This document shows, one piece after another, positions 2,628 to 25,772 of a stretch of DNA of 64,000 nucleotides. The first letter of the stretch is position 1. Each line of letters starts with the position of its first letter. The notes below the pieces were generated by a model that saw only the letters and a list, made by a program, of their open reading frames with translations, did not search any database and was not told the DNA's origin. The stretch comes from Halobacterium jilantaiense (lineage in GTDB: Archaea > Halobacteriota > Halobacteria > Halobacteriales > Halobacteriaceae). The translations under genes were made by a program, and so were the position numbers. The stretch covers positions 868,001 through 932,000 of the forward strand of contig NZ_FOJA01000001.1 in assembly GCF_900110535.1 (NCBI RefSeq), in the 5' to 3' direction.

Positions 2628-4688
2628 GTGCCATCATCATCTATTCGGTCACGGTTCGACGGGACGTTGGTCACGGTACCGTTCGGCGGTGACAACGTCG
2701 AGCGTACTGCGCGGGACGAATATCGAACCCTCCTCGACGAGTACGATTCTGAGGATGTGCTCGTTTTGACGGGTGCGCCGACGAGTTCGGACACGTTCCG
2801 AGAGACGTTAGGTGAGGAGCTGTCGGGTGCGGCGACGCCGTACGTAAGTTCACTCGTGGTGCACGCGACTGATGTCCTGAATCAGACGGATGAACGCGTC
2901 ATTCTCTCTGACGCGCTGCGGCGTGAGCTCCTTCATCGGTTCCTCGCGGACTACGAGTGGGAGACGGAGTACCTCCAGCGGGCGGCTGAACAGCCGTCGT
3001 TCATCGACCATGTAGACCAGGTGATGGACACGATTTCCTGGCAGACTATCACGCCTGAGGAGACACCGGAACTCCGGGAGATTACGGCTGCGCTTGACGC
3101 GTTCCACGAGTGGCTGGCCGAGCACGACCACATCGAACGCGGGCAACTCATCTCCGAAGCGCTTGACGTGCTTACCGGGGATGGCCGCGACGCTGTCGTT
3201 GATTTCGAGGCGGTGCTTGCGGTGGAGTTTGAGGAGTTCTTCCCGCTCGACCGCGCATACCTCGACGCGCTCGCGGGCGACAGTGAGCTCGTCTGTATCG
3301 CCGAGGAGAACGCGAGCGTGCGCCGCACGTGGGTCGAAACAGGACCGGTTACGGACCACGTCTCGTTCAGCGAATCCCGACGCGGGGATTCGGAGACGCC
3401 GTCCACCCGGCCGGCTGCCACGGCAGCGTATTTCGCTGAGGAGACAGTGTCAGCGGATCCGGAAACTGGGTCGGTCTCTGTGCTCGCTGCTGATTCCAGT
3501 GACGAGCAGCTCGCCGAGATTGCGAACGAGATTGAAGCACTCGTCGCGCAACAAGACTGGAGCTACGACGACATCGCGGTCGCCACGAAGCAAAGCGGGA
3601 GTGCTGTGACCGACGTGATTGAGGCGTTCGAGCGGTCGGGGATTCCGACAGAATCGACGACTGTGACGGGGTTCGGTGACGATCCCGCGATTCGGGAGCT
3701 CCTCGCTGTCGTTCGGCACCTCGCAGCCGACGACGACGATGACGTGCCCGGGCACGGTCCAGACCTCGATGAAGAGCGGGTAGACCGCGCTGCAGAGATA
3801 GATGGGCTCGAAGAGGCGTTGCGGTGGTGGGCGACGGAGTCGGGGTTGAAAGCGCAGATTGCGGAGCGGGCATCGCCGCTGGATGCTCGGGCGGAGTTTG
3901 GGAACGTCAGGCGAGCGTTCCGGATGGCGGCGTTCCTCGAAGACACCGAGTTCATGGAGGCGACGTGGGCGTCGCTCGCGGAGATGCTGGAACGCGCCCA
4001 CGAGTATGCGCCCCAGCAGAATCAGACGAGTGCGACGGAGCTCGATGGTGGCGTTCGCGTCGATCACTTGCAGGCGATCAAGAACGAGTCGTTCCGCGCG
4101 GTGTTCCTCGTGAATCTCGTCGACAGCGAGTACCCAGGTGACCCGTTCCTGTCGCGGTTGTTCCCGACCGAGCGTGTCGCATCGATGCCGGATTACCCGG
4201 GCGTCACGCAACTCGATGATGGGGAGGTAGGCGCGACGTTCCCGACGACGTCGACGGCGTCGGGGCGGCCATTCGCGCAGTACCACACTGAGCACGCGCG
4301 GCGACGGTTGGCTGTCGGTGCGGGTGCGGCGTCGGAGCGGCTGTACTGTTGTCTCTACGAGTTCGAGGACACGGCGCTCGAAGAGCGCGCGCAGGCATCG
4401 CGGTTCCTCACGGCGGCGTACGACGATCTGCCGTGGGTGACCGAAGCCGACGATCCCGGCATTACGAGCGAGCGGGCGGCGGAGGAGTATCTACTGTCGC
4501 GGGTTGACGACGCGCTCGCGGAGGTAAGCCGGGCGACCAGTCAGGACGTGACCGTGTCGCTTGACGAGGTGGAAGCAGAACTCGGTGAGATCCAAGAGTT
4601 GCTCGAACGGAGCGGCGCTCGGGGTGAGGAGCTCCGGAAGGCGTTGCGTGCGCGTGTCGAGCTGGCGACCGGGGAGGTGCGGCGATGA
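2628..4688 (+). CDS. AddB/RecC-like inactivated helicase subunit
   Basis: 686 aa from the GTG at 2628; a TGAGG sequence lies 9 bases upstream and a TTATC box near 2581. The frame is open back to 2544, so a longer form is possible. The N-terminus has a strand-loop (VLVLTGAPTSSD) where a Walker A would lie, but it lacks GKT. Later segments resemble UvrD-family C-terminal domains: WSYDDIAVA, then VDHLQAIKNESFRAVFLVNL, as in AddB and RecC where the helicase fold is kept but ATP hydrolysis is lost. It would act as the DNA-holding partner of the helicase encoded at 5584-9048. It is followed with a 4-base overlap (ATGA) by the nuclease gene, so all three proteins are probably made together. Function is inferred from architecture and context. 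Confidence 0.6.
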   Translation: MPSSSIRSRFDGTLVTVPFGGDNVERTARDEYRTLLDEYDSEDVLVLTGAPTSSDTFRETLGEELSGAATPYVSSLVVHATDVLNQTDERVILSDALRRELLHRFLADYEWETEYLQRAAEQPSFIDHVDQVMDTISWQTITPEETPELREITAALDAFHEWLAEHDHIERGQLISEALDVLTGDGRDAVVDFEAVLAVEFEEFFPLDRAYLDALAGDSELVCIAEENASVRRTWVETGPVTDHVSFSESRRGDSETPSTRPAATAAYFAEETVSADPETGSVSVLAADSSDEQLAEIANEIEALVAQQDWSYDDIAVATKQSGSAVTDVIEAFERSGIPTESTTVTGFGDDPAIRELLAVVRHLAADDDDDVPGHGPDLDEERVDRAAEIDGLEEALRWWATESGLKAQIAERASPLDARAEFGNVRRAFRMAAFLEDTEFMEATWASLAEMLERAHEYAPQQNQTSATELDGGVRVDHLQAIKNESFRAVFLVNLVDSEYPGDPFLSRLFPTERVASMPDYPGVTQLDDGEVGATFPTTSTASGRPFAQYHTEHARRRLAVGAGAASERLYCCLYEFEDTALEERAQASRFLTAAYDDLPWVTEADDPGITSERAAEEYLLSRVDDALAEVSRATSQDVTVSLDEVEAELGEIQELLERSGARGEELRKALRARVELATGEVRR

Positions 4689-5587
4689 GTTCGTCGCTGT
4701 CCCCGTCTCGGTTGGCGACGTACGCGACGTGTCCGCGGCAGTACGACTACGGCTACGTGCAGGACGTGAACACGCCAGACCGGACGGAACTGTATCTCAA
4801 CCAGGGGACGATCTATCACGAGACGATCGAGGACGTCTGTGACGAGACCGACCGCGACGATGCTCCGGAGACGATACACGAGCGGGCGATGCGGGTCTTC
4901 GATGCGAAGTGGGCTGAACACAGTACTGCGGAGGATTACGAATCGGATGCGCATCAGGCGTACCAGCGGGCGGAGAATCGTGCGGGCATCGCGGCGTTTT
5001 TCGATCCGGACGGCGGTGACGGTATCGAGCACGCGCGGCGGTCGGTCGCCACCGAGGTGTGGGTTGAGTGCGAGTGTGACGGCGTCCGTCTCCACGGGAA
5101 GGCCGATAACGTTGTTCGGACCGATGAGGGGCTCCATATCTTCGACTACAAGCGGAACGTGCGTGGTGTCCTCACCCCGTGGACTGCTCAGTATCTCGCG
5201 GATCACCGCGACGGCGACGCGCACGAACCGAAACGCGTCCGGAACGCGTTCCAGACGGCGACGTACGTTGAAGGTGTGAAGAACGAGGCTTTCTATGAGG
5301 CGGACATGGAGGTCCGGTTCAGCTTCTATGGCCTCCTGCATGACACGGACTTCACGAGCACGCCAGACGGTTACGAGGTGTCCGCAAGCGGGAAGGAACG
5401 CGAGACGACGGAGCTCTACGAGGAGCATTACGACACGATTTGGGCGCTCATTCGGGAGGCCCATGATGGGATTACGAGTGAGCGGTACGAGCCAGCGTTT
5501 TTCGAGTTGATTACCGAGGAGGCGTGTCCGGACTGCGACTACAGGGAGATGTGTGCTGACCGGTTGTCCACGGAGGTGCAGCGATGA
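4685..5587 (+). CDS. RecB/Cas4-family PD-(D/E)XK nuclease with four-Cys Fe-S signature
   Basis: 300 aa. The N-terminal signature LATYATCPRQYDYGY supplies Cys16. A central HGKADNVV strand gives the acidic residue, and IFDYKRN (about 153-157) gives the D-Y-K of the nuclease site. The C-terminus has CPDCDYREMC (about 281-290), three more cysteines. One N-terminal Cys plus three C-terminal Cys is the Fe-S staple known from AddB and Cas4 nucleases. In AddB this nuclease is the C-terminal domain; here it is a separate gene, starting 4 bases inside the AddB-like gene and overlapping the helicase gene by 4 bases. It likely degrades DNA ends opened by the helicase. Confidence 0.8.
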   Translation: MSSSLSPSRLATYATCPRQYDYGYVQDVNTPDRTELYLNQGTIYHETIEDVCDETDRDDAPETIHERAMRVFDAKWAEHSTAEDYESDAHQAYQRAENRAGIAAFFDPDGGDGIEHARRSVATEVWVECECDGVRLHGKADNVVRTDEGLHIFDYKRNVRGVLTPWTAQYLADHRDGDAHEPKRVRNAFQTATYVEGVKNEAFYEADMEVRFSFYGLLHDTDFTSTPDGYEVSASGKERETTELYEEHYDTIWALIREAHDGITSERYEPAFFELITEEACPDCDYREMCADRLSTEVQR

Positions 5588-8500
5588 GCGACGACGCTGA
5601 GTATCCGTCTTGGTTCCCGGTCCCCGAAGAGGATGTCTCACCGGAGCCCCAACAGGAGGCGATTATCGATTCAGACGCGTATCCGATGCGCGTGCTCGCG
5701 GGAGCCGGCACGGGGAAGACGTTCACGATGGTGCGGAAGATCGAGCACCTCATCGACGAGGAAGATGTGTCGCCGGACCGGATTCTCGCGTTGACGTTCA
5801 CGAACAACGCGGCGGACTCGATGCGGGAGAAACTTAACGCGAAACTTGGGACCGCGGGGTACGACATCGACGCGTACACGTACCACTCGATCTGTAACGA
5901 GATCCTCACCGACTACGCGTACGAAGCCGGGATCGACCCGGACTTCGAGGTTGCCACGGACGCCGAAAAGTACGCTATCGTGCTGGATGTGCTCGACGAC
6001 ATCGAGTACCGATCGGTCAAACCCAACGTGTACGGCTCTGATGGGTACGCGTCCGGAGCTGCGTCGAAGCTCCTGAACTTCATCGGGTCGATGAAGCGCA
6101 GCGGCATCTCCCCCAGCGACATCGACGCGTTCCTCGGCTCTGCTGACCGCGTCTACGAGCGCGCCGACCTGCCGGAGCGCATCGAAACGATTGCCAGCGA
6201 CCATCTCGGCGGGCGGTCCGTCGGCAGTGTGTTGGACGCACTCCCTGATGTGCGCGACGAGCTCGCCGCTGAACGTGACGCCCTGGGCACGGACGGGATG
6301 GCAGCGAGCACTCGGGACTTCATCGACCGGCTCCTCGAAGTCTGTGATGCGCTCGAAGCCGCGTTCGAGGCTCACGAAGCTGGCGAGCGAAGCCTGCCAG
6401 ACAACGCATACAAACTCCCGAAATACCTGCTCGGCGGGTACGCGAGCGGAGCCCCGACAGGGATCCCGGACGACCTGGACCTCGAACTCACGGACCACCT
6501 CGACTCGTTCGTCGCCGACTGTCTCACCGCCAGAGACCTCACGGCAGGCTACGCTGCGTATGAACGCGAACTCAACGAGCGGAATCTCATTGACTTCGAC
6601 GGCTTGGTCGTCGAGACCGCTGCGCTGATGGACTCGCCGGTTGGTGAGGAGATCGCCGAGCGGTGGGACTACGTGTTCTGCGACGAGTTCCAGGATACTG
6701 ACCGGCTGCAGTTCGATCTCGTCACGTCGCTCGTCACTGATGACAATCTGTTCGTCGTTGGCGACGACGACCAGGCGATCTACGAGTGGCGTGGCGCGCA
6801 CGTCGCTAACATCACCGACGAGCTCGACCGTGCGTTCGCTGCACTCAGTGACGAGCCGCTGGAGGAGAACTTCCGTTCCCGGCAGCCGATTCTCGACCTG
6901 GCGAACGAAGCGATCACGAAACTCGACGGCCGCGAGAGACACAAAACGCTCACGCGCGTCGATGAACCGGCGTACGACGGTGACACGGTCGCCACCGTCG
7001 AACTCCCCGAGGACGACGACGCTGACGGCTCGGCACAGCTTCGGACTGTCGTCCAGAATTTGCTGAGCGGTGACGCGGAGGCCCTCGACGAGGCGTACGA
7101 CCCGGGCGACATCGCGCTGCTCGTCCGGAAGAACGACCACGCGACCCCCGTCATCGAGGAGTTCGAAGACGCCGGGATTCCGTACCAGGTTGCTGGCGAT
7201 CTGGCCACAGAATCGGTCGGCGTTGGCACCGTCACCGCCTACCTGAAGGCGCTCGCACGGCCGGAGGACGAGGTGAGCTGGAATCGCGTCCTGCTGATGC
7301 GGTACCGGCTCTGCGATGCGGACCTCCGCACGCTCAACGCCGGCGAGGAGCCACTCGTGGACGCGCTTCGGGGGACACCACTCGATAAGTTCGAGGAGCC
7401 TGACCGCGTCGCTGAGGCGCGCGAGCACGTCACGGAACTGCTCGATATTCGGGACTCGGCGTCGCTCAGTCATCTCTACCGCGAGCTCACGGACCGCACG
7501 AATATCGAGTGGTACCTCAGTGAACAGGAGCGCCGCGATCTCGCCCAGCTAGAGGACGTCATCGAACAGTACGGAGACAGCGCCGTTCAACCACCACTCA
7601 CTCCTGAGTTCATCGACTCGCTCGAACACTACGACTCGCTGTTCGACGAGAGCGGGTCCTCGCCGACGAGTCAGCCGGATGTCGCCGACGATGCGGTCAA
7701 CGTGATGACCATCCACAAGAGCAAAGGCCTGGACTTCCCGGTTGTCCTCATCCCGCAGATCACCGCCGAGGAATGGGCCCCGAGTTCACGGACCTACAAC
7801 GCGTTCGAAACGAGCCTCTCGGACGGCCCCACGGCCGCGTTCGCTCAGGACTTCGTTGAGCGTGATGCCCGTGAAACTCGCCGCGTGCTCCACGTCGGCA
7901 TCACGCGCGCCGAAGATGTTCTCGTTCTCCAGGGCGGCACCGACGACGAATCTGATGCATCGGGCACGCACCCGGTCACTGAGGCGGTCAGTGAGATACT
8001 GCCGTCCCGAATCCCGTGGCAGCCAGAACGAGGACACCTCCCCCTCTGGGCAGATATCCAGGAGTGCCTCCCGGATGAGGCGGTAGACTGGACTACGACG
8101 CTGGCCACTGAGACAGTGGGGAACGTCGGGGGGATAGTCCGCCATAACGGGGATGACCTCACTGTTCGGACCGCACGCGACCGCGTCATCTCTCTGGCAA
8201 CGGCTACGCTCGATGGAGACCTCACGCCACGCGCCGACCGGGAACGACTGCAGGTCCCGTCGCTGAATGGTCCGGCAACGCAACCGCCGGCACTCTCGCA
8301 TAGCTACACGTCATTGACGGCGTACGAGGAGTGCCCACGGAGCCACTACCTGGAGTACGTCGTCAACGCGTTCCCCGACTACCAAGAGAACACGAACGAT
8401 ACCGGGGACGGCGTATCGCAACGCGAAATCGGCGTGCTGTTCCACGACACTGCCGAACAGGCCGCGAAGCAAGACGTCGGGAACCGTGAGGGGTGGTACG

Positions 8501-9048
8501 ACATTTGCCAGCGGCTCGCCAGTCAGCGTCGGGCAACGGACGCACTCCCGGCGGCGAAACAGTGCATCGACCGGTATTTCGAGTTAGAGCTCTCCGAGTA
8601 CGAGGTCATCGACGCAGAGCGCGAGTTCGAACTCGATATCGATGGCCACGAACTCATCGGGTTCATCGACGCGGTCTACCGGACACCCGACGACGAGCTA
8701 CTCGTGATCGACTACAAGGCGACGGAACGCCGCCGCGACCTGGAGACCGATAAGCAGCTCCCGATTTACCTCTTGGCCTGCCGTGACCTGTACGACGAAC
8801 CAGTGACCCGCGCTGGATACGCCTACGTCGGCGACATCGGCCCGCAGGTCGAGGAGCGAGTATTCAGCGACGCCGAAATTCAAGCGGTTGCCGATGACGT
8901 GACGGAATCGATGAGTCAAATTGCGGAGCTATCCTTTAGCGAGTATTCCGCCGGCGACCACTGCCAGTGGTGCCAGCACAACCAACTGCCCTGTGCTGAC
9001 GATGCCCCCCGTACTGCGGCAGAAATACCACCGGATCGGCCTCAATAG
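5584..9048 (+). CDS. UvrD/AddA-like SF1 helicase fused to Fe-S PD-(D/E)XK nuclease
   Basis: 1154 aa. Helicase motifs appear in order: Walker A AGAGTGKT (39-46), motif Ia LALTFTNNAA, motif II CDEFQDTD (about 365), motif III VGDDDQAIYEWRG, motif V TIHKSKGLDFPVV and motif VI HVGITRA. The last 250 residues form a RecB-like nuclease: Cys in TAYEECPRSHY (about 918), GHELIGFIDAVY, then LLVIDYKATE (about 1042), and a final CQWCQHNQLPC that completes a four-Cys Fe-S staple. It is expected to unwind DNA from ends and cut it, in complex with the two upstream products. In typical AddA the nuclease lacks the Fe-S cluster, so having the staple on both nuclease domains is unusual. Roles in double-strand-break repair or anti-phage defence are both possible. 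Confidence 0.85.
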   Translation: MSDDAEYPSWFPVPEEDVSPEPQQEAIIDSDAYPMRVLAGAGTGKTFTMVRKIEHLIDEEDVSPDRILALTFTNNAADSMREKLNAKLGTAGYDIDAYTYHSICNEILTDYAYEAGIDPDFEVATDAEKYAIVLDVLDDIEYRSVKPNVYGSDGYASGAASKLLNFIGSMKRSGISPSDIDAFLGSADRVYERADLPERIETIASDHLGGRSVGSVLDALPDVRDELAAERDALGTDGMAASTRDFIDRLLEVCDALEAAFEAHEAGERSLPDNAYKLPKYLLGGYASGAPTGIPDDLDLELTDHLDSFVADCLTARDLTAGYAAYERELNERNLIDFDGLVVETAALMDSPVGEEIAERWDYVFCDEFQDTDRLQFDLVTSLVTDDNLFVVGDDDQAIYEWRGAHVANITDELDRAFAALSDEPLEENFRSRQPILDLANEAITKLDGRERHKTLTRVDEPAYDGDTVATVELPEDDDADGSAQLRTVVQNLLSGDAEALDEAYDPGDIALLVRKNDHATPVIEEFEDAGIPYQVAGDLATESVGVGTVTAYLKALARPEDEVSWNRVLLMRYRLCDADLRTLNAGEEPLVDALRGTPLDKFEEPDRVAEAREHVTELLDIRDSASLSHLYRELTDRTNIEWYLSEQERRDLAQLEDVIEQYGDSAVQPPLTPEFIDSLEHYDSLFDESGSSPTSQPDVADDAVNVMTIHKSKGLDFPVVLIPQITAEEWAPSSRTYNAFETSLSDGPTAAFAQDFVERDARETRRVLHVGITRAEDVLVLQGGTDDESDASGTHPVTEAVSEILPSRIPWQPERGHLPLWADIQECLPDEAVDWTTTLATETVGNVGGIVRHNGDDLTVRTARDRVISLATATLDGDLTPRADRERLQVPSLNGPATQPPALSHSYTSLTAYEECPRSHYLEYVVNAFPDYQENTNDTGDGVSQREIGVLFHDTAEQAAKQDVGNREGWYDICQRLASQRRATDALPAAKQCIDRYFELELSEYEVIDAEREFELDIDGHELIGFIDAVYRTPDDELLVIDYKATERRRDLETDKQLPIYLLACRDLYDEPVTRAGYAYVGDIGPQVEERVFSDAEIQAVADDVTESMSQIAELSFSEYSAGDHCQWCQHNQLPCADDAPRTAAEIPPDRPQ

Positions 9049-9201: not shown

Positions 9202-9486
9202 TTAGTCGTCGTCTGCTGTATATGCGCCTCCACGACGCTTGATTCGGGCAATGACGAGCCGCTTTTTGTCCTGCCGGAATGTCGCGGCGAGCCGAAATCC
9301 ACCAACTCGGATTTTCTTGTGGGGACTGTTTTGCAGTGGCTCGCCGTAGTCCGGCGGGTCGCGCCACGGGGAGGTGACGATTTCATCAAGTTTGTCGAGG
9401 ACCCGTTCCTGCTCCTCGGGGGAGAATGCGTCAAGGTCGGTCCGCGCGGTCGAGGAGAGTTCCCAGGTCCACTCCTCGTCACTCAT
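9202..9486 (-). CDS. RelE/ParE-superfamily toxin
   Basis: 94 aa. The start is the ATG at 9486 (MSDEEWTWELS), which lies inside the end of the antitoxin gene; the two overlap by 8 bases (ATGAGTGA). The fold pattern is that of RelE/ParE toxins: N-terminal strand, two helices (SPEEQERVLDKLDEIV), then basic strands KIRVGGFRLAATF and RLVIARIKRRGGAY. A RelE member would cut mRNA on the ribosome, whereas a ParE member would poison gyrase; the sequence alone does not decide. The antitoxin is the gene immediately upstream. Such pairs commonly stabilise mobile islands. Confidence 0.75.
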   Translation of the reverse strand: MSDEEWTWELSSTARTDLDAFSPEEQERVLDKLDEIVTSPWRDPPDYGEPLQNSPHKKIRVGGFRLAATFRQDKKRLVIARIKRRGGAYTADDD

Positions 9487-9760
9487 CGCTTGTGCCGAAC
9501 GTCTCGCGTGCTTGTTCGGCGTCCATCGTCTTGCCCTTGCGGCTGTCTTCCTCGGCGGCGAGCAGTGCGATGAGCTCATCACGGTCGAACGTCGGGTTCT
9601 CGACTGCATCTCGGAGCGTGTACCGAATGAACTCGCTCCGACTGTTGAAACCGCGACCTTGCCAGGCCTCGTCAATCTCGGTGAGGAATGACTGCGTGGT
9701 TTTGAAATTCACCGTGACAATCTCGTCTTCGCCGTCCCCGCCCGTAGAAGCTTCAGACAT
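9479..9760 (-). CDS. Ribbon-helix-helix antitoxin
   Basis: 93 aa from the ATG at 9760; the frame extends further upstream, but MSEASTGG matches the beginning of typical short antitoxins. The strand EIVTVNFKTTQSFLTEIDEAW and helix-turn RSEFIRYTLRDAVE are the CopG-like ribbon-helix-helix DNA-binding unit. The charged C-terminal part (EEDSRKGKTMDAEQ) should wrap the toxin. It overlaps the toxin gene by 8 bases, so the two are translationally coupled. It probably represses its own promoter in the short region upstream of 9760. Confidence 0.7.
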   Translation of the reverse strand: MSEASTGGDGEDEIVTVNFKTTQSFLTEIDEAWQGRGFNSRSEFIRYTLRDAVENPTFDRDELIALLAAEEDSRKGKTMDAEQARETFGTSDE

Positions 9761-9886
9761 ACGCACGTAATACGCTGGTAATACTGTTAACGGTTTCGCC
9801 GACTTCGACGTCCGAGCCCACTGATGCACTCGCAACCGGATGGTCGGCATCAGCAGTTTCTCGTTACTGGACTTGATCCGCACCGG

Positions 9887-11656
9887 TCAGTGCGGTTGGT
9901 CGATTTCCGTGAGTGCCCACGCCGCGCGGTTGCGGACCCGTTCGTCGTCGTCATTGATTCGAACGTCGTCCAGCCGTGAAGCTGCCGGGTCTGCACGAAC
10001 GTGTCCGAGCATCCAGCAGGCGTTCAGCCGGACGAGGCGGTGGTCGTAGTCGAGTAACGAGATGTATTGTTTGGTCAGGTGCTCGACTGCGGTGGGGTTC
10101 GTGTCGGCGACTCGTGAGAGGGCGGCGGTTGTGTTCACGAGCGCGTAGTCGTCGTCGGATTCGAGGAGTACTGCGAGTTGGTCGACGTAGGGAACGAGCT
10201 CGGTCGCGTGGCCTTTTGCGATATCGCCGAGGACGCCGGCTGCGTTCGCGCGGAGGCGTTGGTTGTCTGCGTCTATGAGGTCGGCGAGTGGTTCGATAGC
10301 ATCGAGGGCTGCGTCCGGGTATTCACTGGCTATTCGGCCGAGTGCGGCGGTGGCGTTCAGCCGTGGTTGAACGTCCAGTGATTCGTCTTCGAGGACCTCT
10401 GTGAGTGTGGTAGCGGCGGGGCGTACTTCGTCGGGGTGTTCCGCGGCGGTCCGATTGAGCGCGAACAGTGCGTAATCGAACCCCGCCAGTTCGTTAGCGA
10501 CGATGGCACTCAACGCTGGCACGGCGTCGACGACGTCCGCGGGGTGGTCGCTGGCGACCTCCGAGATAATTCGAGCCGCTGAGCGCTGCTGCCGGGCGTC
10601 GTCCGTCAGGAGATACGGTATCACGTCGGGAACGAACGGCGCGATGTCCGCTGGTCGGGCGGCGGCGATCGGGGCGAGGCACTTCAGAACCGGGGTTGCG
10701 TGGGTGTCATCAGCGAGGTGGCTGCGAAGCGCAGGGAGGACCGTCAGGCAGCCCTCGGGTCGGGCTTCGGCGAGCGACTGGACTGCATCCAGTACGGTCT
10801 CGCGTACGGTGCTGTCGTCGCTATCGAGCAGGTCGATGACGGTGGCGAACTCGACTTGGTCGGGGGCGGTGGCAGCGATGTCGGCGAGGGATTTGGCGCG
10901 TGCCAGCGGTGTCTCTCCGTCGACGGTGAACAGGTCGGCCGGCGGCTCGACAGCCTGCAGAGACCGTATGTCGTCGAGGCGAACACGGAACGTTTCACCG
11001 CTCGGCGGGAGAGCCACACACTCAACGGTGATGGCGGCGGCGGGCCGGCGGACAGTCCGTTCAACGATGCTCGCGTCCCCGACCAGCCGCTGTTGGCTCC
11101 CATGGTCGCTGTGGTACGCGAGCTCGAAGGCGTCAGCATCCGCGTGCTCATCGAGGAACGACCGAAGCCCATCGAGGTCAGGCCGAGTGATGCTAGCAGC
11201 GGTGGTTGGTGAGCCGCCATCGGTACGAGGCGTGCACCAGGGGAGGCCGGGGTCGATGTTGCCGTTCTTGACGGCGGGGACGAAGTCCCAGGCGTGGTAG
11301 TGCGTCCAGTCGTTGACGTCGCTGAGGTCCAGGTCGTCGACGACGATGTACTGGTCTGCGTTGGGGTGGAGATCGGCGATCAGGGCGAGGCGCTCGCGGC
11401 GGGTCGGGAAGCGTTCGTATCGGCCGTCGGGTTGCTTGCTGCCGAGCCACTCCCCCCATTGGTCTGGGTGTCGGCCGACGATGTCGACGACGCCGGGGAT
11501 TGCGGCTTCGTCGGCGAGGTCCTGGTTGCCGATGGCGTAGACGGCGTGGTTGGTTTCGTGGGCGAGGTGGCGGACCCACTCCAGGGGAACCGCATCGTGG
11601 CGAGGGTGGGGATTCACGTCGACGGTCCAGTCGCGGTCGAACGCGAACACCGTCAT
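9887..11656 (-). CDS. HAD-like domain fused to HEAT-repeat array
   Basis: 589 aa. Residues 1-150 resemble a HAD phosphatase: FAFDRDWTVD gives the DxDxT-like nucleophile motif, and YIVVDDLDLSDV resembles the acidic motif IV. A middle region of about 100 residues is unassigned. From about residue 245 to the end are repeated helical pairs of about 38 residues with Asp-rich turns (for example NATAALGRIASEYPDAAL, NAAGVLGDIAKGHATELV), which are HEAT/ARM repeats used for protein binding. The gene begins inside the last codons of the VWA gene (4-base overlap), so the two products very likely work together. No published system of this exact composition comes to mind. Confidence 0.7.
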   Translation of the reverse strand: MTVFAFDRDWTVDVNPHPRHDAVPLEWVRHLAHETNHAVYAIGNQDLADEAAIPGVVDIVGRHPDQWGEWLGSKQPDGRYERFPTRRERLALIADLHPNADQYIVVDDLDLSDVNDWTHYHAWDFVPAVKNGNIDPGLPWCTPRTDGGSPTTAASITRPDLDGLRSFLDEHADADAFELAYHSDHGSQQRLVGDASIVERTVRRPAAAITVECVALPPSGETFRVRLDDIRSLQAVEPPADLFTVDGETPLARAKSLADIAATAPDQVEFATVIDLLDSDDSTVRETVLDAVQSLAEARPEGCLTVLPALRSHLADDTHATPVLKCLAPIAAARPADIAPFVPDVIPYLLTDDARQQRSAARIISEVASDHPADVVDAVPALSAIVANELAGFDYALFALNRTAAEHPDEVRPAATTLTEVLEDESLDVQPRLNATAALGRIASEYPDAALDAIEPLADLIDADNQRLRANAAGVLGDIAKGHATELVPYVDQLAVLLESDDDYALVNTTAALSRVADTNPTAVEHLTKQYISLLDYDHRLVRLNACWMLGHVRADPAASRLDDVRINDDDERVRNRAAWALTEIDQPH

Positions 11657-13752
11657 TCGTTAGGCACCTCTGCGCCGGCTGTTGGTGCTTCCCAGCCGAG
11701 GATGTCGAGGAGGTCCAGTTCCTGCTGGAGCGTGTCGTCGCCGACGGCGTCCATCTCGTCTGCGAGGTAGTCGTGGAGCTGGACGAATCGGCTGGCGGAC
11801 TGTTGGGGCACGGTCAGCGGGACCGATTCGCGTTCGTGGTCGCCGCGGGCGTCGCCGAGCAGCCAGTCGTCGATGCCACCCGTTGCGTCGGCGCGCTCGT
11901 GGACGTCTCGGCTCCAGGCGCGGAGTTCGCGGGCGTATCGGGCGAGCGCGACGGCCTTCCGAATGCCGTCGTGGGCGAACGTCTCCGGGTCATCTGGGAT
12001 CTCGACGGTGACGTGTTCGGTGTGGTCGCTGCCGTTTCGTTCCGTCCACGAGGCGACTAGCTCCAGGTCGGCGTCAGCCCGGGTCTCTTCTAGGCGGACG
12101 AGGACGACGCCGCCGCGGGCTTCGCCGTCCTGTTTGGCGGAGGGGAACAGCGTCCCAACGTGCATGAGGTCGCCCGTGGCCGCGTCCGCCGACGGCGAGC
12201 CGTGGACCGACGCGATCTGGTAGCCGTCGGTCCGGAGTTCGAGATCGAGGTCGTACACGAGCGGGGAGACCATGTAGGCGAACTCGTCGCCGAGGCGCTG
12301 CTTGAACTCCTGAGCGGAGTGGACGAAGTAGTGGTTCGCACCGCGAATCCCGGACAGCGTGTCCGCGAGTTCCGCGTTGGCGTCGAGGCCCATGCCGACG
12401 AACGTGGTGTGAATGCCGTTGGCGGCCGCGTCGGCGAACAACTCGGTGAGTTCGCTGTCGCCCGTCGCGCCCGTGTTCGGTATCATGTCGGTGAGGAAGA
12501 CGACGCGTTGCTCGTCACGGGGGTTGCCGGTGTGGTCGGCGAGCATGTCGACGGCAGCTTCGAAGCCGTCTGCAAGGTTCGTGCTGCCGTCGGCGGTGAT
12601 GTCGCGGATGTGGCGACGAATCGCCGGCATGTCCGTCGTGCCGACATCGCGGAGGGGTTTAGCGACGTGTGCGCGGTGGTTGTAGAGGACGACGCCCAGC
12701 CGGTCGTCCGGATGGAGCTGTTGAGTGAGCGCGCACAGCGACTGGGTTGCGGCCGCCAGCTTCGTCGACGCGTCGGGTTCGGCCTCGCGCTTGCGGCCGT
12801 GTTCGTCGTAGTAGTACGCGTCGAACGGGCTGGTCATCGACCCGGAGACGTCGAGGACGGCCACGAGGTCCAACCGCGGGCGTTCGAAGTCGGCGACCGA
12901 CAGCGTCGAGTCGAGGCCGACCGAGAGGTACTGCTCCGTCTTACCACTAATCGGGTGCTCGGTCACGGCGGCGGCGTACCGCGGGGCGAACAGGCTGTCC
13001 GAGTCGGTGCGCTCGCCGGTCTCGAAGTGGTAGTCGTAGAACAGCCCCTCGTCGCTGATGGCTTCGGGCTGTGGGGTGTAGCCGTCGATGACGTTCTCGC
13101 GGAAGTTGGTGACGTCCTTCGCGCCGCCAGCGGCGAGCCCGACGGTCTCCGGGCTCGCCATGTCAGAAGTGGCCGGTGCGGGCGACACGTTCTCCACGAA
13201 CTCGTCGAGGGCGTGGTCGGCCTCGGGCGCGTCGTGGTGATGTTGGGAGGCGGTGTGTCGTCTGCAGTCGGTGCAGACGTAGTCAGGTGCCGCCACGCGC
13301 CCGTCATCGTCATCATGCATCGGGGTCCAGTCGTCGACGGTGGTCGTCCCGGGGCGGACGCGACGGATGGTTGTCGCGTTGTCGATGATGCCGATGCGGG
13401 CGTCGAGCCCCAGTTCTGTGGCGGCCTCGGCGACTGTCGGGCCAGCAGCATCGGCGACGGTTCCGGGCCGTAGTGCGCCACCACAGTTGGGGCAGGTGGC
13501 GTCCGTTGTTTCTGTCGCGTCGGGCGGTGTTGCGCCGAGGAGGCTGGTGATGCGGTGGGTCGCGCCGGTTTTCAGGTCGCGGATCGGGTCGCTGTCCGGC
13601 GTGGTGAGGATGGCGAATTCCGTGCCGTTCTGGTCGGCGACGAGGAGTCGGTGGACGCGGCCGTCCGGGCAGTCGATTGCACGGCGTGTGATGAACTCGA
13701 CGGCGATGTCGAGTCGGGCTTCGGCCTGGATGTCGGCGTAGGTCGTGTCCAT
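11653..13752 (-). CDS. VWA-domain protein with zinc ribbon and N-terminal OB-like region
   Basis: 699 aa from the ATG at 13752; a longer frame to 13869 exists, but its extra residues look non-coding. The N-terminal 80 residues (IRDLKTGATHRITSLL) look like an OB/RPA-type strand set. Two Cys pairs, CPNC (87-90) and CTDC (160-163), could bind zinc. The VWA domain starts near 295 with the MIDAS motif DVSGSM (D301, S303, S305), followed by DGSTNLADGF and FLTDMIPN for the Thr and Asp ligands, so it should bind a metal. VWA proteins mediate metal-dependent protein contacts, often with AAA ATPases or in conflict systems. It is coupled to the downstream HAD-HEAT gene and divergent from an ATPase gene. 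Confidence 0.8.
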   Translation of the reverse strand: MDTTYADIQAEARLDIAVEFITRRAIDCPDGRVHRLLVADQNGTEFAILTTPDSDPIRDLKTGATHRITSLLGATPPDATETTDATCPNCGGALRPGTVADAAGPTVAEAATELGLDARIGIIDNATTIRRVRPGTTTVDDWTPMHDDDDGRVAAPDYVCTDCRRHTASQHHHDAPEADHALDEFVENVSPAPATSDMASPETVGLAAGGAKDVTNFRENVIDGYTPQPEAISDEGLFYDYHFETGERTDSDSLFAPRYAAAVTEHPISGKTEQYLSVGLDSTLSVADFERPRLDLVAVLDVSGSMTSPFDAYYYDEHGRKREAEPDASTKLAAATQSLCALTQQLHPDDRLGVVLYNHRAHVAKPLRDVGTTDMPAIRRHIRDITADGSTNLADGFEAAVDMLADHTGNPRDEQRVVFLTDMIPNTGATGDSELTELFADAAANGIHTTFVGMGLDANAELADTLSGIRGANHYFVHSAQEFKQRLGDEFAYMVSPLVYDLDLELRTDGYQIASVHGSPSADAATGDLMHVGTLFPSAKQDGEARGGVVLVRLEETRADADLELVASWTERNGSDHTEHVTVEIPDDPETFAHDGIRKAVALARYARELRAWSRDVHERADATGGIDDWLLGDARGDHERESVPLTVPQQSASRFVQLHDYLADEMDAVGDDTLQQELDLLDILGWEAPTAGAEVPNE

Positions 13753-14078
13753 TGGTCTGGGTCGGCTGCCAGTCCCCGGGCAGCCAGCGGGTTGTTTTGC
13801 GAACTCCGACTCCTCACACCCCTGCCTAAACAACACTGGGATGTTCCTTATCGTTCTTCTACACCCCATAGTGTGAGCTAAATTGTAATAAACTCTTCGC
13901 CAAGATGGACTGTGTGGGTGTATATCTGGCTCAAAGGCACACCAAAGTGTACTTTCTCAGTATATCCGGTGGATGGAGCATGCTCCGTAGCGGTTAGTGG
14001 TTCGGAATGGACGTTGGGCTGTCGGGTAGAGGGCCGAAACAATCATTGGAGAGTCTTTCGTGGGTCCGACAACGCGCC
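13753..14078. other. Divergent intergenic region with palindrome and paired TATATC boxes
   Basis: 326 bases between the VWA gene (minus) and the ATPase gene (plus). It contains TATATCTGG at 13921-13929 and TATATCCGG at 13961-13969, exactly 40 bases apart, a perfect 12-base palindrome GGAGCATGCTCC at 13975-13986, and a TTTATTA element on the minus strand near 13888. These fit two divergent promoters with a possible operator. No gene was found here; the long minus frame that reaches 13869 covers part of it. Confidence 0.45.
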
Positions 14079-15644
14079 ATGTCTATCGACGCCGGTGACG
14101 CCCTTCTCCGGGCGCTCCACGACCACAACCCCTGGTGGGAACACGGAACGGACGCGTTCTCTCTCCCAGCCCGCCAGAAGAGTGACTTCTACCACCTAAC
14201 CCGCCCAGAGCGCTCGGGCAGCCAGTTCGAGGACCAACCACTGCTCGGTCTCGTCGGTCGGCGAGGCGTCGGGAAGACGACGCTCCTCCACCAGTTCATC
14301 CACCACCGCATCGACCACGGCGACGACCCAGCGCAGTTCCTCTACCTCCCATTCGACGCCGACCCGCTCTACCAGCTCCAGTCCGACGACCAACTCCGGC
14401 GCGCCATCCGCTACTACGAGAGCCGCGTCCTCGGCCGCCTCGACACAGACACCCCACACTTCGTCATCATCGACGACGTCCACCAGATCGAACACCCCAA
14501 CAAACCGACGATCGACGGCTGGGGCGGCCCCGTCGCTGACCTCCTCAACGATCCCGCCGACCGCCACGTCGTCGTCACAGCCAGCGCAGCGATACAGGTC
14601 GAACGCGAACTCCAGAGTGCCGGCGTCAGCGACGACGACTACGGGATTCAGCCCATCCTTCCCGAGAAGTTTCGTGACTACCTGTTCAGCCTCTACCCCG
14701 CCCTCGAAGAACCAGACACCCGCGTCAGTCCAACGTCGCTCCGCAAAGGCGAGAACAGCCTCCCTACAGCCCTCAAAACGAGAGACATCGGACCGTTCGT
14801 CTCCGAACTCCGTGTGAAGCACGACCGCGTCGCAGACGTCGAACGCCGCATCCAGTCACAGGTCGTCGATTATCTCGCCATGGGCGGCACCATCAGCTTC
14901 GAACGCGACGGCGTCGTCGAATCCGCAGCCGACCTCAACGAAGCCGATTACACGCGCCTGCGGGACAACGTGCGAAATGCACTCTATCAAGAAGTCCCGG
15001 GATTCGAATCCATCCAGACCATCGCCGACTTGGAGCGCCTGTGCGCGCTCGCGGCCCGAAACCGGGGCGCGGATACGTTCCGGTACCAGGACCTCGTGGA
15101 ACTGTTCGATGTCGACCGGCGAACTATCGCCGACAGCTACCTCCCCGCGCTCAAAGAACTCTACCTCCTGACGAGCGCTACCGAATACGACAACAGCCGC
15201 CCGCGGTCCGTCCATCTCTATCTCCGGGATACGGGCCTGGTGACCGCCCTCGCTGACGGTGACGCGGCAGCCGTCCGCAACAACTTCGACCGCGAGGTGG
15301 ACCTTGCACGCGTCGCCGCCTTCGACCACACCATGCGGTTCGCGTACGGCGTCAACGCCATCCAGGGCAACGATGCGTCGCCGTCCATCCAGTATTGGCG
15401 GGGGCGCGACGGCGAGGTCGACTTCGTCTTCGAGGTCGGCGACACCCCCGTGCCCGTCGGCCTCGCATATCACTCCGGCGAGCGAGACGCAGCGCTCGCG
15501 GCGGTCCGCGAGTTCAAACAGACATACGAAGCACCAGTCGGACTGCTGTTGGCTGGCGACACCGTCCAAGCGGCGCAGCCCATTGAGGATCTCGGTGACG
15601 GCGTCGTCCAACTCCCCTACTGGCTGTACCTGTTGCTCTGCTAG
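14079..15644 (+). CDS. AAA/P-loop ATPase with DUF4143-like C-terminus (COG1373 type)
   Basis: 521 aa from the ATG at 14079 (MSIDAGDALLR); the frame extends 24 codons further upstream. Walker A is GRRGVGKTT (about 67-75) and Walker B is FVIIDDVHQIE. A winged-helix-like segment (FRYQDLVELFDVDRRTI) sits in the middle, as in COG1373 proteins. The C-terminus corresponds to the DUF4143 nuclease-like fold, but where related proteins have an E-V-K it reads VGLAYHS, so that site appears inactive. It is read away from the VWA/HEAT pair and shares their regulatory region. Related ATPases are abundant in archaea and mostly uncharacterised. Confidence 0.75.
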   Translation: MSIDAGDALLRALHDHNPWWEHGTDAFSLPARQKSDFYHLTRPERSGSQFEDQPLLGLVGRRGVGKTTLLHQFIHHRIDHGDDPAQFLYLPFDADPLYQLQSDDQLRRAIRYYESRVLGRLDTDTPHFVIIDDVHQIEHPNKPTIDGWGGPVADLLNDPADRHVVVTASAAIQVERELQSAGVSDDDYGIQPILPEKFRDYLFSLYPALEEPDTRVSPTSLRKGENSLPTALKTRDIGPFVSELRVKHDRVADVERRIQSQVVDYLAMGGTISFERDGVVESAADLNEADYTRLRDNVRNALYQEVPGFESIQTIADLERLCALAARNRGADTFRYQDLVELFDVDRRTIADSYLPALKELYLLTSATEYDNSRPRSVHLYLRDTGLVTALADGDAAAVRNNFDREVDLARVAAFDHTMRFAYGVNAIQGNDASPSIQYWRGRDGEVDFVFEVGDTPVPVGLAYHSGERDAALAAVREFKQTYEAPVGLLLAGDTVQAAQPIEDLGDGVVQLPYWLYLLLC

Positions 15645-15842: not shown

Positions 15843-17537
15843 ATGAGTGGGAATTTAGGCATTTCTGCGAACGAAGATACCATCGAAAGTGTTCTTTCTC
15901 GCAACTATCGCTACACAGTCCCGGACTACCAGCGCCAATATTCATGGGGTGAAGAACAATGGCGTGCTCTCTGGGAAGACCTGCAAGCATTGGATGACGA
16001 GGACACTCACTTCCTCGGGTCGGTCGTCGTAATTGAGCGCTCGGAAGGATTAAACGAGTTAGACCGGCTCGAAGTCGTCGATGGTCAACAGCGCTTAGCG
16101 ACCATTCTAGCGATGCTCTCCGTGATGCGACAGAAGTATCTAGACGAGGGAGAGCAGAGTCAGGCGGACGCTATTCGAAACGAGTATCTCTTCGAGCAAG
16201 ATCTCGACCAGCGAGAATACCAGAATCTCTCTCTGAGTCGGTACGACAACGATTCGTTCGCATCTATCTTGAACTGCGACTTCGGGCAGGTAGACAACGA
16301 GAATCTAGACGAGGCACTCGAATTCTACGGCTCGCGGATTCATAGCCTGACCGTAGAGGAAACGGATACGCTTCGGAAAAAGTTGCTGAGCTCTATCACC
16401 CTTGTCACTATCGAGTGTACCGAGGAGCAGTCGGCCTTCCGTCTTTTCGAGACGCTAAACGAGCGCGGGCTGGAACTGTCCTCGGTTGACCTGATGAAGA
16501 ATCACGTCTTCAGTCTTGCTGCTCAAGAGGACAGTGTTGATTACGACGACATCCAGAAATCGTGGCAGAGAGCGGTAGAAAACACGGTTCCGAATCTCAA
16601 CAAGCCGAGTCGATTCTTCCGGCACTACCTCATGTCGGCTCCAGAGCCGGACTTCACCGACGCCGTTTCAGATTACAAACTCTATGATACGTTCCAAGAA
16701 ATAATCGAGGAAGTTCGGTCGTCGCCTGGCATCTCTCTGGAATCTTATCTAGCAGACATCGCGGAGCAGTCCGAATTGTATATGCGGATTGTGAATGCGG
16801 ACATCAATCAGTTCGATCGGAGCGGCAACGAAGCTATCAATGAGAAACTGACCCAACTCCATCACATCAAATCAGTTCAAGCACGCACACTGTTGCTCCG
16901 TATCTTCCGTGAGTTTGACAACCCGAACAAGGCTATGGAAGCTCTTGGCGTCCTTGAGCGCTTCCTGATTCGATGGAAGGTCGCTAACTATGCGACCGGC
17001 AGTCAATTAGACCGGATCTATTCCGAACTCTGTTCCACTGTATTTGACGAGAGCGATCCCGTGGAGCAGATGGCGGACTATCTGAGCGAAAAGTATCCGA
17101 GTGAGGAGGAGTTCAAGGCAGGCATCGAGAACAAACGGGTTAAGCTGAACAATCGGACAAAGTACATGCTGAAGCGCATTGAGGAAGTTCACTACGGAGG
17201 TACTATCGACCGGATGGACGACTACGAGTTGGAACACATCGCGCCCCGGTCTGCGTACACCGCTACGAAACACAGCGCTTGGGTCACCACGTTAGACACC
17301 ACTGAGGCAACCTTCGAACAGCACCGTGACCGGCTCGGGAACCTTACTCTACTCGAATCGGACAAGAACATCCGAGCGAGCAATAACCCGTTCGAGACAA
17401 AAAAGAGCGAATACGCTACTTCGAACGTTACGATGACCCAGACGCTCGCCGAAGACTACGATGACTGGAATCTTGACTCTATTCAACAGCGCACATCTGA
17501 GCTTGCAGAGGTAGCCGCGAACATCTGGTCGCTATAA
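15843..17537 (+). CDS. GmrSD-type modification-dependent restriction endonuclease (DUF262/DUF1524)
   Basis: 564 aa. The N-terminal DUF262 (GmrS-like NTPase) domain has VPDYQRQYSWGEEQW and VVDGQQRL. The C-terminal DUF1524 HNH-like domain (about 460-540) has ELEHIAPRSAY and a downstream RLGNLTLLESDKN with conserved Asn residues. In the family, these single-chain enzymes use nucleotide hydrolysis to cut DNA with glucosylated hydroxymethylcytosine or other base modifications, so this is a type IV restriction enzyme against modified phage DNA. The gene is clearly more A/T-rich than its neighbours, consistent with recent transfer. The upstream 198 bases contain TATA-like GTATAC near 15790 and no gene. 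Confidence 0.85.
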   Translation: MSGNLGISANEDTIESVLSRNYRYTVPDYQRQYSWGEEQWRALWEDLQALDDEDTHFLGSVVVIERSEGLNELDRLEVVDGQQRLATILAMLSVMRQKYLDEGEQSQADAIRNEYLFEQDLDQREYQNLSLSRYDNDSFASILNCDFGQVDNENLDEALEFYGSRIHSLTVEETDTLRKKLLSSITLVTIECTEEQSAFRLFETLNERGLELSSVDLMKNHVFSLAAQEDSVDYDDIQKSWQRAVENTVPNLNKPSRFFRHYLMSAPEPDFTDAVSDYKLYDTFQEIIEEVRSSPGISLESYLADIAEQSELYMRIVNADINQFDRSGNEAINEKLTQLHHIKSVQARTLLLRIFREFDNPNKAMEALGVLERFLIRWKVANYATGSQLDRIYSELCSTVFDESDPVEQMADYLSEKYPSEEEFKAGIENKRVKLNNRTKYMLKRIEEVHYGGTIDRMDDYELEHIAPRSAYTATKHSAWVTTLDTTEATFEQHRDRLGNLTLLESDKNIRASNNPFETKKSEYATSNVTMTQTLAEDYDDWNLDSIQQRTSELAEVAANIWSL

Positions 17538-17630: not shown

Positions 17631-18668
17631 TCAGTCGGTTGCGGACAGGATTCGGAGGTCGCGTTCGATTTGTGGCGCTACCTTTGGGCTGCGGCAGTCG
17701 ATGTCCAGTTCTTCGTGCTGCCAGTGTCGGCCATCCTTGTCGTTCCAGACGCCGTACAGCGTGACCTTCGGGAGTTTGAGGACGCCGAAGAGGATGGTGA
17801 GATAGTACAGTAATTCGGTGGCGTCTGTCCACGAGCCCTGTGCTTTCCTTGGGAGATCGACGGGATAGGTCACGTGGTGAGCGGGAACTCCTGCTTCCTG
17901 TGCGCGGTCCACGAATCCATAATCGTTGGACAACAGGAGCACGGTCTTCCGGCTGTCTTCGTTGAACTCACGGTACGCGTCGACGATTTCCTGGTCTCCC
18001 GTTTCGGAGTTGACGATATCGACGGTTCGGGTGGTGCGGAGGCGGCGATACTCGTATAGGCCGAGGAATCCCTCGCGGTTCGGTCCTGCCGGCTGTTCGT
18101 CCAGTCGCTCGAATTCGTCGCCGAACGCGGCCGTGAGTTCGTGGGTGTTGTACTGCTTGTAGTGCCAGTCGAGTTCTTCCTTGACACCGGTCGCTAACGC
18201 GTACCCGTTCGTCGGTGCGCGATCCTTGTCGTCGCTTTCGCCGGTCTCACTGTCGATGCCGAGCGTTTCGGGGAGCCGCCAAGGTACGAGGTTCGTGTCC
18301 AACCCCAACACGACTGGCTCGTGACCCGCCTCCAGATCTGCGTACCCGTAGCGGTCGAAGAAGGACGCGATTTCACTGTCGTTTTCGACGTCGACGAGCC
18401 CACTGGCGACTACAGCCCGCGTGTACGTCTCGGCGTCAGGGAGGTCATCGTATGCAGGCTCGCCGTGTTTCACGGGAATCTCTTCCCGGTTGTCCTGGTA
18501 GGTGTACGTTCCCTGGGTGAACCGAACCGTCGCCGCACCGTCGTCTTCCAGTTCGATGCGGACGAGCTCGCCGATGTCACTGGAGGGGTGTTCGACCGGG
18601 ATGGAGTCGACGCCCGCGTCGTAGAGCGCGTTCAACAACACAGTGAGCCGGGATCGAGTGACCTGCAT
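17631..18668 (-). CDS. PIN-like nuclease partner of CARF-like protein
   Basis: 345 aa. The first 110 residues are an unassigned alpha/beta region. A PIN-like core begins with VVLGLDTNLVPWR (D124, N126), continues with EELDWHY (E164/E165), and has LLLSNDYGFVDRA (D249, D254), the usual spread of acidic residues that bind metal in PIN RNases. The start ATG shares one base with the stop of the CARF-like gene (TGATG), so the two are co-translated. The natural reading is an RNase controlled by the cyclic-oligonucleotide sensor next door. It differs from VapC toxins in length and in lacking an antitoxin neighbour. Function is inferred. Confidence 0.65.
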   Translation of the reverse strand: MQVTRSRLTVLLNALYDAGVDSIPVEHPSSDIGELVRIELEDDGAATVRFTQGTYTYQDNREEIPVKHGEPAYDDLPDAETYTRAVVASGLVDVENDSEIASFFDRYGYADLEAGHEPVVLGLDTNLVPWRLPETLGIDSETGESDDKDRAPTNGYALATGVKEELDWHYKQYNTHELTAAFGDEFERLDEQPAGPNREGFLGLYEYRRLRTTRTVDIVNSETGDQEIVDAYREFNEDSRKTVLLLSNDYGFVDRAQEAGVPAHHVTYPVDLPRKAQGSWTDATELLYYLTILFGVLKLPKVTLYGVWNDKDGRHWQHEELDIDCRSPKVAPQIERDLRILSATD

Positions 18669-19138
18669 CAGAGCACCTCCGTGAAGTCGATGAGGTCACT
18701 CGCAGTGCGCGGCATCTCCGGATAGAACCGTCCCCGGTAGCGTCCAGCTTTCCGATGGAAGTAGTAGACGTGGTCCGCGCCGAACTGGATGCCGGCCTGA
18801 AAAGCGATTGCGGACATGAACTTCCGCCCCGGGGTGACGTCGATCGCTATCTCGTCACCGGCGGTGGTCGCTGCCTCGATGCAGGACTGGTAGTAGTCGA
18901 CGATCGATTCGAAGTCCGTCTCACTTACGAGCTCGTGGACGTCGGTCTCGGTGTCCCCGCCGTACGCAGCCACCGTTTCTTCCATCAGTGTGACGGCTTC
19001 TTCGACGTCGTCGGCGACCGGTGGGTTCGACAGCACGTGGACTTCGTCCGGGACGTACCCGCCGTCACAGGCCGCGATCAGCGGGTTCAGAATTCCGGGG
19101 GTCGTCGGCGTCCCACAGGTCACCCAGTGGCGTGTCAT
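18668..19138 (-). CDS. Stand-alone CARF-like domain protein
   Basis: 156 aa from the ATG at 19138; the open frame extends upstream to 19201 but without typical composition. The first strand and loop (WVTCGTPTTPGILNPLI) and the second strand (EVHVLSNPP) are followed by a late motif, IAIDVTPGRKFMSAIAFQAG (about 98-115), which matches the conserved nucleotide-binding turn of CARF domains in Csm6, Csx1 and Card1. CARF domains bind cyclic oligoadenylate made by type III CRISPR Cas10. No CRISPR array or cas gene is visible in the window. The gene is coupled to a PIN-like nuclease, so sensor and effector are on separate chains. Confidence 0.65.
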   Translation of the reverse strand: MTRHWVTCGTPTTPGILNPLIAACDGGYVPDEVHVLSNPPVADDVEEAVTLMEETVAAYGGDTETDVHELVSETDFESIVDYYQSCIEAATTAGDEIAIDVTPGRKFMSAIAFQAGIQFGADHVYYFHRKAGRYRGRFYPEMPRTASDLIDFTEVL

Positions 19139-19236
19139 CGTTGCCACAGATGGCGACAGCCCTGAAGTAATCAGGTGGTGGTCCTGGGTGCTGCCAGCCA
19201 CGGAATCTTCATGTGGCCCCCGAGGTATCTCGACAC

Positions 19237-25628: not shown

Positions 25629-25772
25629 AGAACACACTCTCGCTTGACACGAATAAGCTCATTCCACGAACTGATAGTAGAGCCTGATCGGTCTGGAGTA
25701 GTCCCTGGAGATCTGGCAGAGGAACCAAAGGAGTCACCGCGCTCAGGGTGCAGTTCAGTAGTGGTCGGTGAT

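Follow-up and report, generated by a model that had tools for sequence, protein, structure and literature searches.

Related systems

Several described systems share parts with the three-gene cassette analysed here, which lies at positions 2628-9048 of a 64,000-nucleotide stretch of the Halobacterium jilantaiense genome (the window). AddAB, represented by the Bacillus subtilis structures 3u4q and 4ceh and by methanogen loci (L108-L110), has in common with the cassette an inactive AddB fold, an AddB-type Fe-S nuclease and an AddA-like motor-nuclease, all encoded in a compact operon. It differs in that the AddB of the cassette is distributed over two genes, such that the Fe-S nuclease is not the C-terminal domain of AddB, and in that the nuclease of the cassette motor carries Fe-S cysteines, which are absent from the AddA proteins of L108-L110. 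AdnAB from mycobacteria also has a nuclease on both chains, and the models of genes 1 and 2 align to AdnA, but AdnAB is bacterial and consists of two fused chains. UvrD-Cas4 fusions, which have been reported in defence contexts (Hudaiberdiev 2017, PMC5704561), combine a UvrD helicase and a Cas4-like Fe-S nuclease in a single chain, as does gene 3 of the cassette. The kinship with the published family is drawn from profile scores, and in the cassette the corresponding gene comes third, preceded by the genes for the AddB-like protein and for another nuclease.

Other relatives are linked to Argonaute proteins (pAgo). Cas4, PLD and UvrD proteins are known more generally from pAgo operons (PMC6299218, PMC2743648), and a Cas4-type nuclease is linked to pAgo both in the Argonaute-associated Cas4 ACE1 (PDB entries 9iac and 9iab) and in the SeAgo/Cas4/UvrD system of Synechococcus (PMC10653904), where transfer or maintenance of RSF1010 benefits from the loss of any one of ago, cas4 and uvrD. 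The fold of gene 2 is similar to the two ACE1 entries, with Z-scores of 14.6 and 13.5, but no AddB-like scaffold or fused motor-nuclease turned up with ACE1. In Escherichia coli, RecBCD shapes the pool of small guide DNAs of pAgo, yet it is not required (PMC10269773). The haloarchaeal pAgo-AgaP system (APAP; PMC11442185) consists of an Argonaute gene followed by a PLD-domain gene, an arrangement which is shared by a gene block in relatives of the cassette. A helicase gene adjoins some of the ago-agaP operons (Cheng 2024, PMC11442185); the text of that paper contains no description of a three-gene AddAB-like machine. Likewise, no description of the cassette is present in the EVE-domain paper (PMC7641849) or in the Haloferax repair review (PMC7776575), in which AddAB is unmentioned. 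The single links are already known, but the whole three-gene machine and the contrast between its resident and mobile forms appear to be unreported in the literature searched, outside of which fall most subscription journals.

Overall organization of the cassette

The cassette consists of three genes on the forward strand, with a 4-nt overlap at each junction according to the ORF calls, in agreement with the initial annotation. Gene 1 (2628-4688) encodes an AddB-like inactive SF1 helicase subunit of 686 residues without a nuclease domain, gene 2 (4685-5587) a free-standing Fe-S PD-(D/E)XK nuclease of the Cas4/AddB type with 300 residues, and gene 3 (5584-9048) a UvrD-type active helicase fused to an Fe-S PD-(D/E)XK nuclease, with a total of 1154 residues. 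For gene 1 the GTG codon at 2628 is preferred as the start, since relatives begin near this position; a longer form starting from the GTG at 2544 is possible. The gene order is more than chance, because it recurs in all relatives. A sequencing error or local break was ruled out as the origin of the split, which recurs across all clades.

Predicted structures of the AddB-like protein and the separate nuclease

Gene 1 matches the Pfam families UvrD_C (3e-5) and ADDB_N (0.004), both of which fall short of the curated Pfam cut-offs, and searching the PDB by sequence gave no usable match for gene 1 or gene 2. The AF2 model of gene 1, built from 44 sequences and with a pLDDT of 85, can be superimposed to B. 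subtilis AddB (3u4q_B) over 611 residues with a Z-score of 27.8, residues 11-676 of the model covering residues 2-766 of AddB. The Z-score against UvrD is higher (32.6), but is associated with a shorter alignment of 496 residues, and the query-normalised TM-score from Foldseek is about 0.66 for AddB versus 0.56 for UvrD. A comparison using hhalign places gene 1 on columns 11-347 of the fused archaeal AddB profile (E 5e-14). No Walker A motif is found in gene 1 in the homologue rows inspected across all clades. Together with the extent of the AddB superposition, this bears out the earlier proposal that the first protein has an inactive AddB-like fold.

Gene 2 matches the Pfam family PDDEXK_1 (3e-25). 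Its model, with a pLDDT of 90, is most similar to the nuclease domain of AddB (residues 786-1138, Z-score 16.6), followed by AdnA (Z-score 16.3) and ACE1. All four Fe-S cysteines (16, 281, 284 and 290) are intact, and the catalytic residues D141, D154, K156 and Q190 are present. Each modelled singly and compared with B. subtilis AddAB, genes 1 and 2 thus both reveal an AddB fold, and the AddB nuclease is indeed found as a separate gene of 300 codons, as had been proposed. Because the two models cover AddB residues 2-766 and 786-1138, genes 1 and 2 are predicted to tile the AddB chain. The same tiling is seen in the profile comparison with fused archaeal AddB, where gene 2 occupies columns 709-1011. 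By profile, however, the nuclease of solo UvrD-Cas4 proteins is about as similar to gene 2 as the AddB nuclease is, so that the two possible origins, a split AddB or a recruited Cas4-like nuclease, are not distinguished.

The motor subunit and the second nuclease

Gene 3 matches the Pfam families UvrD-helicase (4e-61) and PDDEXK_1 (2e-24). The Walker A and DEFQDT motifs of the motor, the nuclease residues D1029, D1043 and K1045, and the Fe-S cysteines 917, 1127, 1130 and 1137 are conserved in essentially all aligned relatives. The profile scores are 256 bits for PcrA/UvrD versus 137 bits for AddA, and solo archaeal UvrD-Cas4 fusions match the gene 3 profile with E-values of 1e-99 to 1e-107. 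Such fusions (L103-L106) carry an Fe-S nuclease, whereas the archaeal two-gene AddA proteins (L108-L110) do not contain the Fe-S cysteines. An assignment as plain AddA was rejected, as both the cysteines and the profile scores favour UvrD-Cas4; gene 3 is AddA-like in its position and UvrD-Cas4-like in its composition. The suggestion that the AddA-like chain ends in an Fe-S nuclease that ordinary AddA lacks therefore holds for the four cysteines and for the archaeal two-gene AddA proteins, but gene 3 does not represent a new kind of AddA, since solo UvrD-Cas4 has the same feature. An assignment as Gabija GajB was also rejected: the similarity is that of UvrD proteins in general, and no GajA (OLD/TOPRIM) is encoded by the cassette or by any of the neighbouring genes scanned.

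Resident and mobile forms in haloarchaea

Relatives of gene 1 are present in 96 of 293 genomes of the order to which the window belongs (Halobacteriales). The middle gene is found between genes 1 and 3 at every locus with both flanks (about 66 loci); at nine loci (e.g. L067, L071, L074, L079 and L082) it was detected by profile search. Gene calls were heuristic, and the locus flanks extended over 10 kb or less. In a phylum-wide profile search full-length relatives are confined to Halobacteriales. A few methanogens show partial matches, which were rejected as full three-gene systems, being either two-gene AddAB with a fused AddB (L108-L110) or solo UvrD-Cas4 (L103-L107). The split of AddB is a lineage-wide haloarchaeal layout and not a local oddity.

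The haloarchaeal loci are of two kinds: a resident kind, which corresponds to clade C2, and a mobile kind, comprising clades A, B and C1 and including the window. A resident query finds a match in 67 of the 81 Natrialbaceae genomes, a few of these matches being of the mobile kind, and the resident loci have recurring chromosomal neighbours, for example a CBS-domain-like gene. In the resident middle nuclease the catalytic D, K and Q are lost (typically RYR and E), while the Fe-S cysteines are kept; the nuclease of gene 3 remains intact. At Natrialbaceae-type loci (e.g. L072-L097) this middle pseudonuclease is retained across the family. The mobile clades A, B and C1 have both nuclease sites intact in the rows read. 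Near-identical copies from different families (e.g. Natronomonas and Halosimplex) are found in the gene 1 tree, which comes from a fast search, has SH-aLRT values as its sole measure of support and contains some long branches, and the cassette is present in 16 plasmid records, mostly in its clade-B form. Because the tree mixes families and plasmids carry the cassette, the spread of the mobile kind looks horizontal. The anticipated association of the homologues with defence islands is observed for the mobile kind, which lies among defence genes, but the resident version of Natrialbaceae is probably housekeeping, and the family as a whole is not always defensive.

The resident kind raises the question of whether the mobile cassette is likewise a DNA-repair (end-resection) enzyme, carried on islands and plasmids and only incidentally linked to Argonaute. 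AddAB elsewhere is a repair machine, the resident three-gene version is widespread in Natrialbaceae with chromosomal neighbours in common, and an mre11-like ORF is located beside the island, where the flanking sequence analysed begins on its left side. The broad, syntenic distribution of the Natrialbaceae relatives possibly points to DNA repair as the older role, which weighs against a defensive reading. On the other hand, the mobile kind keeps both nucleases where the resident middle nuclease is without D, K and Q, it is spread over families and plasmids, and it shows a fixed 5-nt junction with a PLD gene (see below) across orthologues that are 84-97% identical. In addition, the resection machinery described for Haloferax is Mre11-Rad50 (PMC7776575). 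A repair role of the mobile cassette is therefore considered unlikely. The two-nuclease mobile form and the one-nuclease resident form provide a natural experiment on the change of a repair enzyme into a defence enzyme, or the reverse.

The plasmid copies are also relevant to the idea that the cassette aids its carrier plasmid or element, for example by degradation of competitor DNA or by recombination, instead of defending the cell. This would fit the plasmid records, with their predominance of the clade-B form, and a VirB4-like gene that pAArc1-01 carries at a distance of several kb from its cassette. It is nevertheless quite improbable, considering that the window copy and many others reside on main chromosomes and have genes for restriction, CARF and Argonaute proteins around them.

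The Argonaute-PLD gene block

The most telling context of the cassette, which lies beyond what the initial annotation could cover, is a gene block with Argonaute and PLD genes in relatives. An Argonaute gene is located directly upstream of the cassette in 10 of 25 named clade-A relatives; the encoded block Argonautes are long, with an N-terminal extension. In nine of these ten Argonaute-linked loci an intact PLD gene ends 5 nt before addB, the spacing being the same in all nine, and in the tenth (L017) the PLD gene is decayed. The identities among the nine blocks are 84-97% for Argonaute, 94-98% for the PLD protein, and 84-97%, 82-98% and 86-94% for genes 1, 2 and 3, respectively. All nine Argonautes in the 293-genome sample that are at least 85% identical to the query are in one block with the cassette. 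For the complete plasmid NZ_CP100464.1 the public annotation reads AAA/Piwi/PLD/UvrD/PD-(D/E)XK/helicase. At the genome level, Argonaute is present in 11 of 21 clade-A genomes and in 25 of the remaining 272 (Fisher p 3e-6). A PLD-family gene is found within 25 kb of 17 of the 41 mobile loci and of none of the resident loci, as tallied by hand, with 55 resident loci used in the test and about 58 on recount.

Clade B has a PLD protein downstream of the cassette, without Argonaute. The clade-B PLD proteins contain a long-spaced HxK...GSxN motif like that in PMC11442185, which is lacking in the clade-A block PLD proteins; these have the ordinary short HxK-GSxN spacing and, for this reason, may not qualify as AgaP sensu stricto. 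In L005 and L010 PLD remnants immediately precede addB, and in G051, G067 and G138 PLD fragments adjoin the cassette. Locus L011 begins at a contig edge. Neither an adjacent Argonaute nor a PLD remnant is found at 13 of the 26 clade-A loci.

These partnerless loci would be expected if the cassette were a stand-alone anti-virus nuclease that is independent of Argonaute, with the linkage arising solely from co-residence on islands. Half of the loci in clade A are without an Argonaute neighbour, and the intact cassettes beside PLD remnants or fragments indicate that the cassette survives the loss of PLD. Moreover, shared defence islands by themselves create linkage. However, the block has a fixed, short spacing in many hosts and is accompanied by a significant genome-level association, and clade B retains its PLD protein in the absence of Argonaute. 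Full independence of Argonaute is thus regarded as rather unlikely.

Proposed mode of action

Taken together, the balance of evidence leans towards a mobile, split AddAB-type machine that degrades DNA ends and is used in defence, often together with Argonaute-PLD. The three proteins would form an AddAB-type helicase-nuclease complex acting on double-strand ends, in which subunit 1 would serve as an inactive scaffold of the AddB helicase type, subunit 2 as the AddB nuclease in the form of a separate protein, and subunit 3 as an ATP-driven motor, presumably of 3'-5' polarity, with the second nuclease. By analogy with AddAB, a DNA end would enter the complex and be unwound by gene 3 along the gene-1 scaffold, upon which both strands would be cut. 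Since both of its nucleases are intact, the mobile form should be able to start at an end of linear DNA, unwind it and cleave the two strands. It would move among haloarchaea via defence islands and plasmids, and its function is presumably directed against viruses. Because partnerless cassettes are common, the cassette has to be capable of acting on its own or with other partners.

In one branch the cassette constitutes the distal part of an ago-PLD-addB-nuc-addA block, and to judge from this arrangement it most likely cooperates there with Argonaute and the PLD nuclease of the latter. It could degrade DNA that has been opened by Argonaute and the PLD nuclease or, hypothetically, supply single strands that become Argonaute guides. 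A more specific scenario is tentative: an AddAB-type machine with a split AddB and both nucleases intact may have been taken into haloarchaeal Argonaute-PLD immunity as the dedicated arm that generates guides and shreds targets, beside a resident form with a dead second nuclease. The source of the guides of catalytically active pAgo is an open question, and E. coli RecBCD does not serve Argonaute specifically. With an AddAB-like machine positioned 5 nt behind an ago-PLD pair, as in many haloarchaea, guide supply would become genetically testable within one block, and the separate encoding of the AddB halves allows tests at the level of subunits that are impossible with a fused AddB.

The island in the window

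The claim that the window cassette lies inside a defence island is supported by its neighbours, which include GmrSD, a CARF/PIN pair, an N6-methylase and an AAA/DUF4143 protein. The family of the AAA_14/DUF4143 ATPase (14007-15644, forward strand) recurs next to mobile cassettes of clades A and B, and that of the Eco57I/N6 adenine methylase-like protein (20837-23122, forward strand) has members no more than 10 kb away from several clade-A loci. A PLD-domain protein (23337-25637, reverse strand), 14 kb downstream of the cassette, is in its C-terminal part about 31% identical to the Argonaute-linked PLD proteins. The GmrSD-type modification-dependent restriction enzyme (PADLOC Orf5/HEC-06) is encoded at 15843-17537 on the forward strand, and the adjacent genes for a CARF protein and a CARF/PIN-like protein at 17631-19201 on the reverse strand; relatives of the latter two adjoin other cassettes too (L026, L062 and L064).

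The genome also contains an Argonaute gene, which lies outside the window (G000:C1:858951-861179), 9.4 kb upstream of the cassette. The protein matches the pAgo model with 1065 bits and has a Piwi domain, and it belongs to a different lineage from the block Argonautes (33% identity). In locus L099, outside the window, genes for an OB-type protein, a DEAD/MZB helicase, an HHH/RNase-H-like protein and this Argonaute lie side by side at G000:C1:853324-861179. The mre11-like ORF mentioned above is found beside the low-GC island, at G000:C1:848001 (the L099 start, outside the window). Adjacent ago and agaP genes in one operon, by which APAP is defined, are observed in relatives, whereas here the Argonaute and PLD genes are 9.4 kb upstream and 14 kb downstream of the cassette, and a search immediately upstream of the window cassette revealed no PLD remnants. 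In the quick tree, gene 1 of the window falls outside the subclade that contains the Argonaute blocks (SH-aLRT 94), so that the window cassette may never have been part of the block. On the clade-B plasmid NZ_CP024045.1 the cassette, an OB-type protein, a PLD protein, a DEAD helicase and an RNase-H-like protein are encoded in a row, preceded by an AAA ATPase. All five partners of this cassette, among which there is no Argonaute, have relatives in the window island. On this basis the window island can be interpreted, with moderate confidence, as the same parts loosely assembled over about 40 kb.

Divergent from the cassette, at 1032-2447 on the reverse strand, lies a gene for a 471-residue Zn-ribbon protein, which matches no known family past the ribbon. 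A ParE-like toxin ORF and an overlapping antitoxin-like ORF are located directly downstream of the cassette (9202-9883, reverse strand). They are followed by an overlapping pair of genes for a HEAT-repeat protein and a VWA-domain protein (9887-13869, reverse strand), and relatives of the HEAT-repeat protein recur near other clade-A loci.
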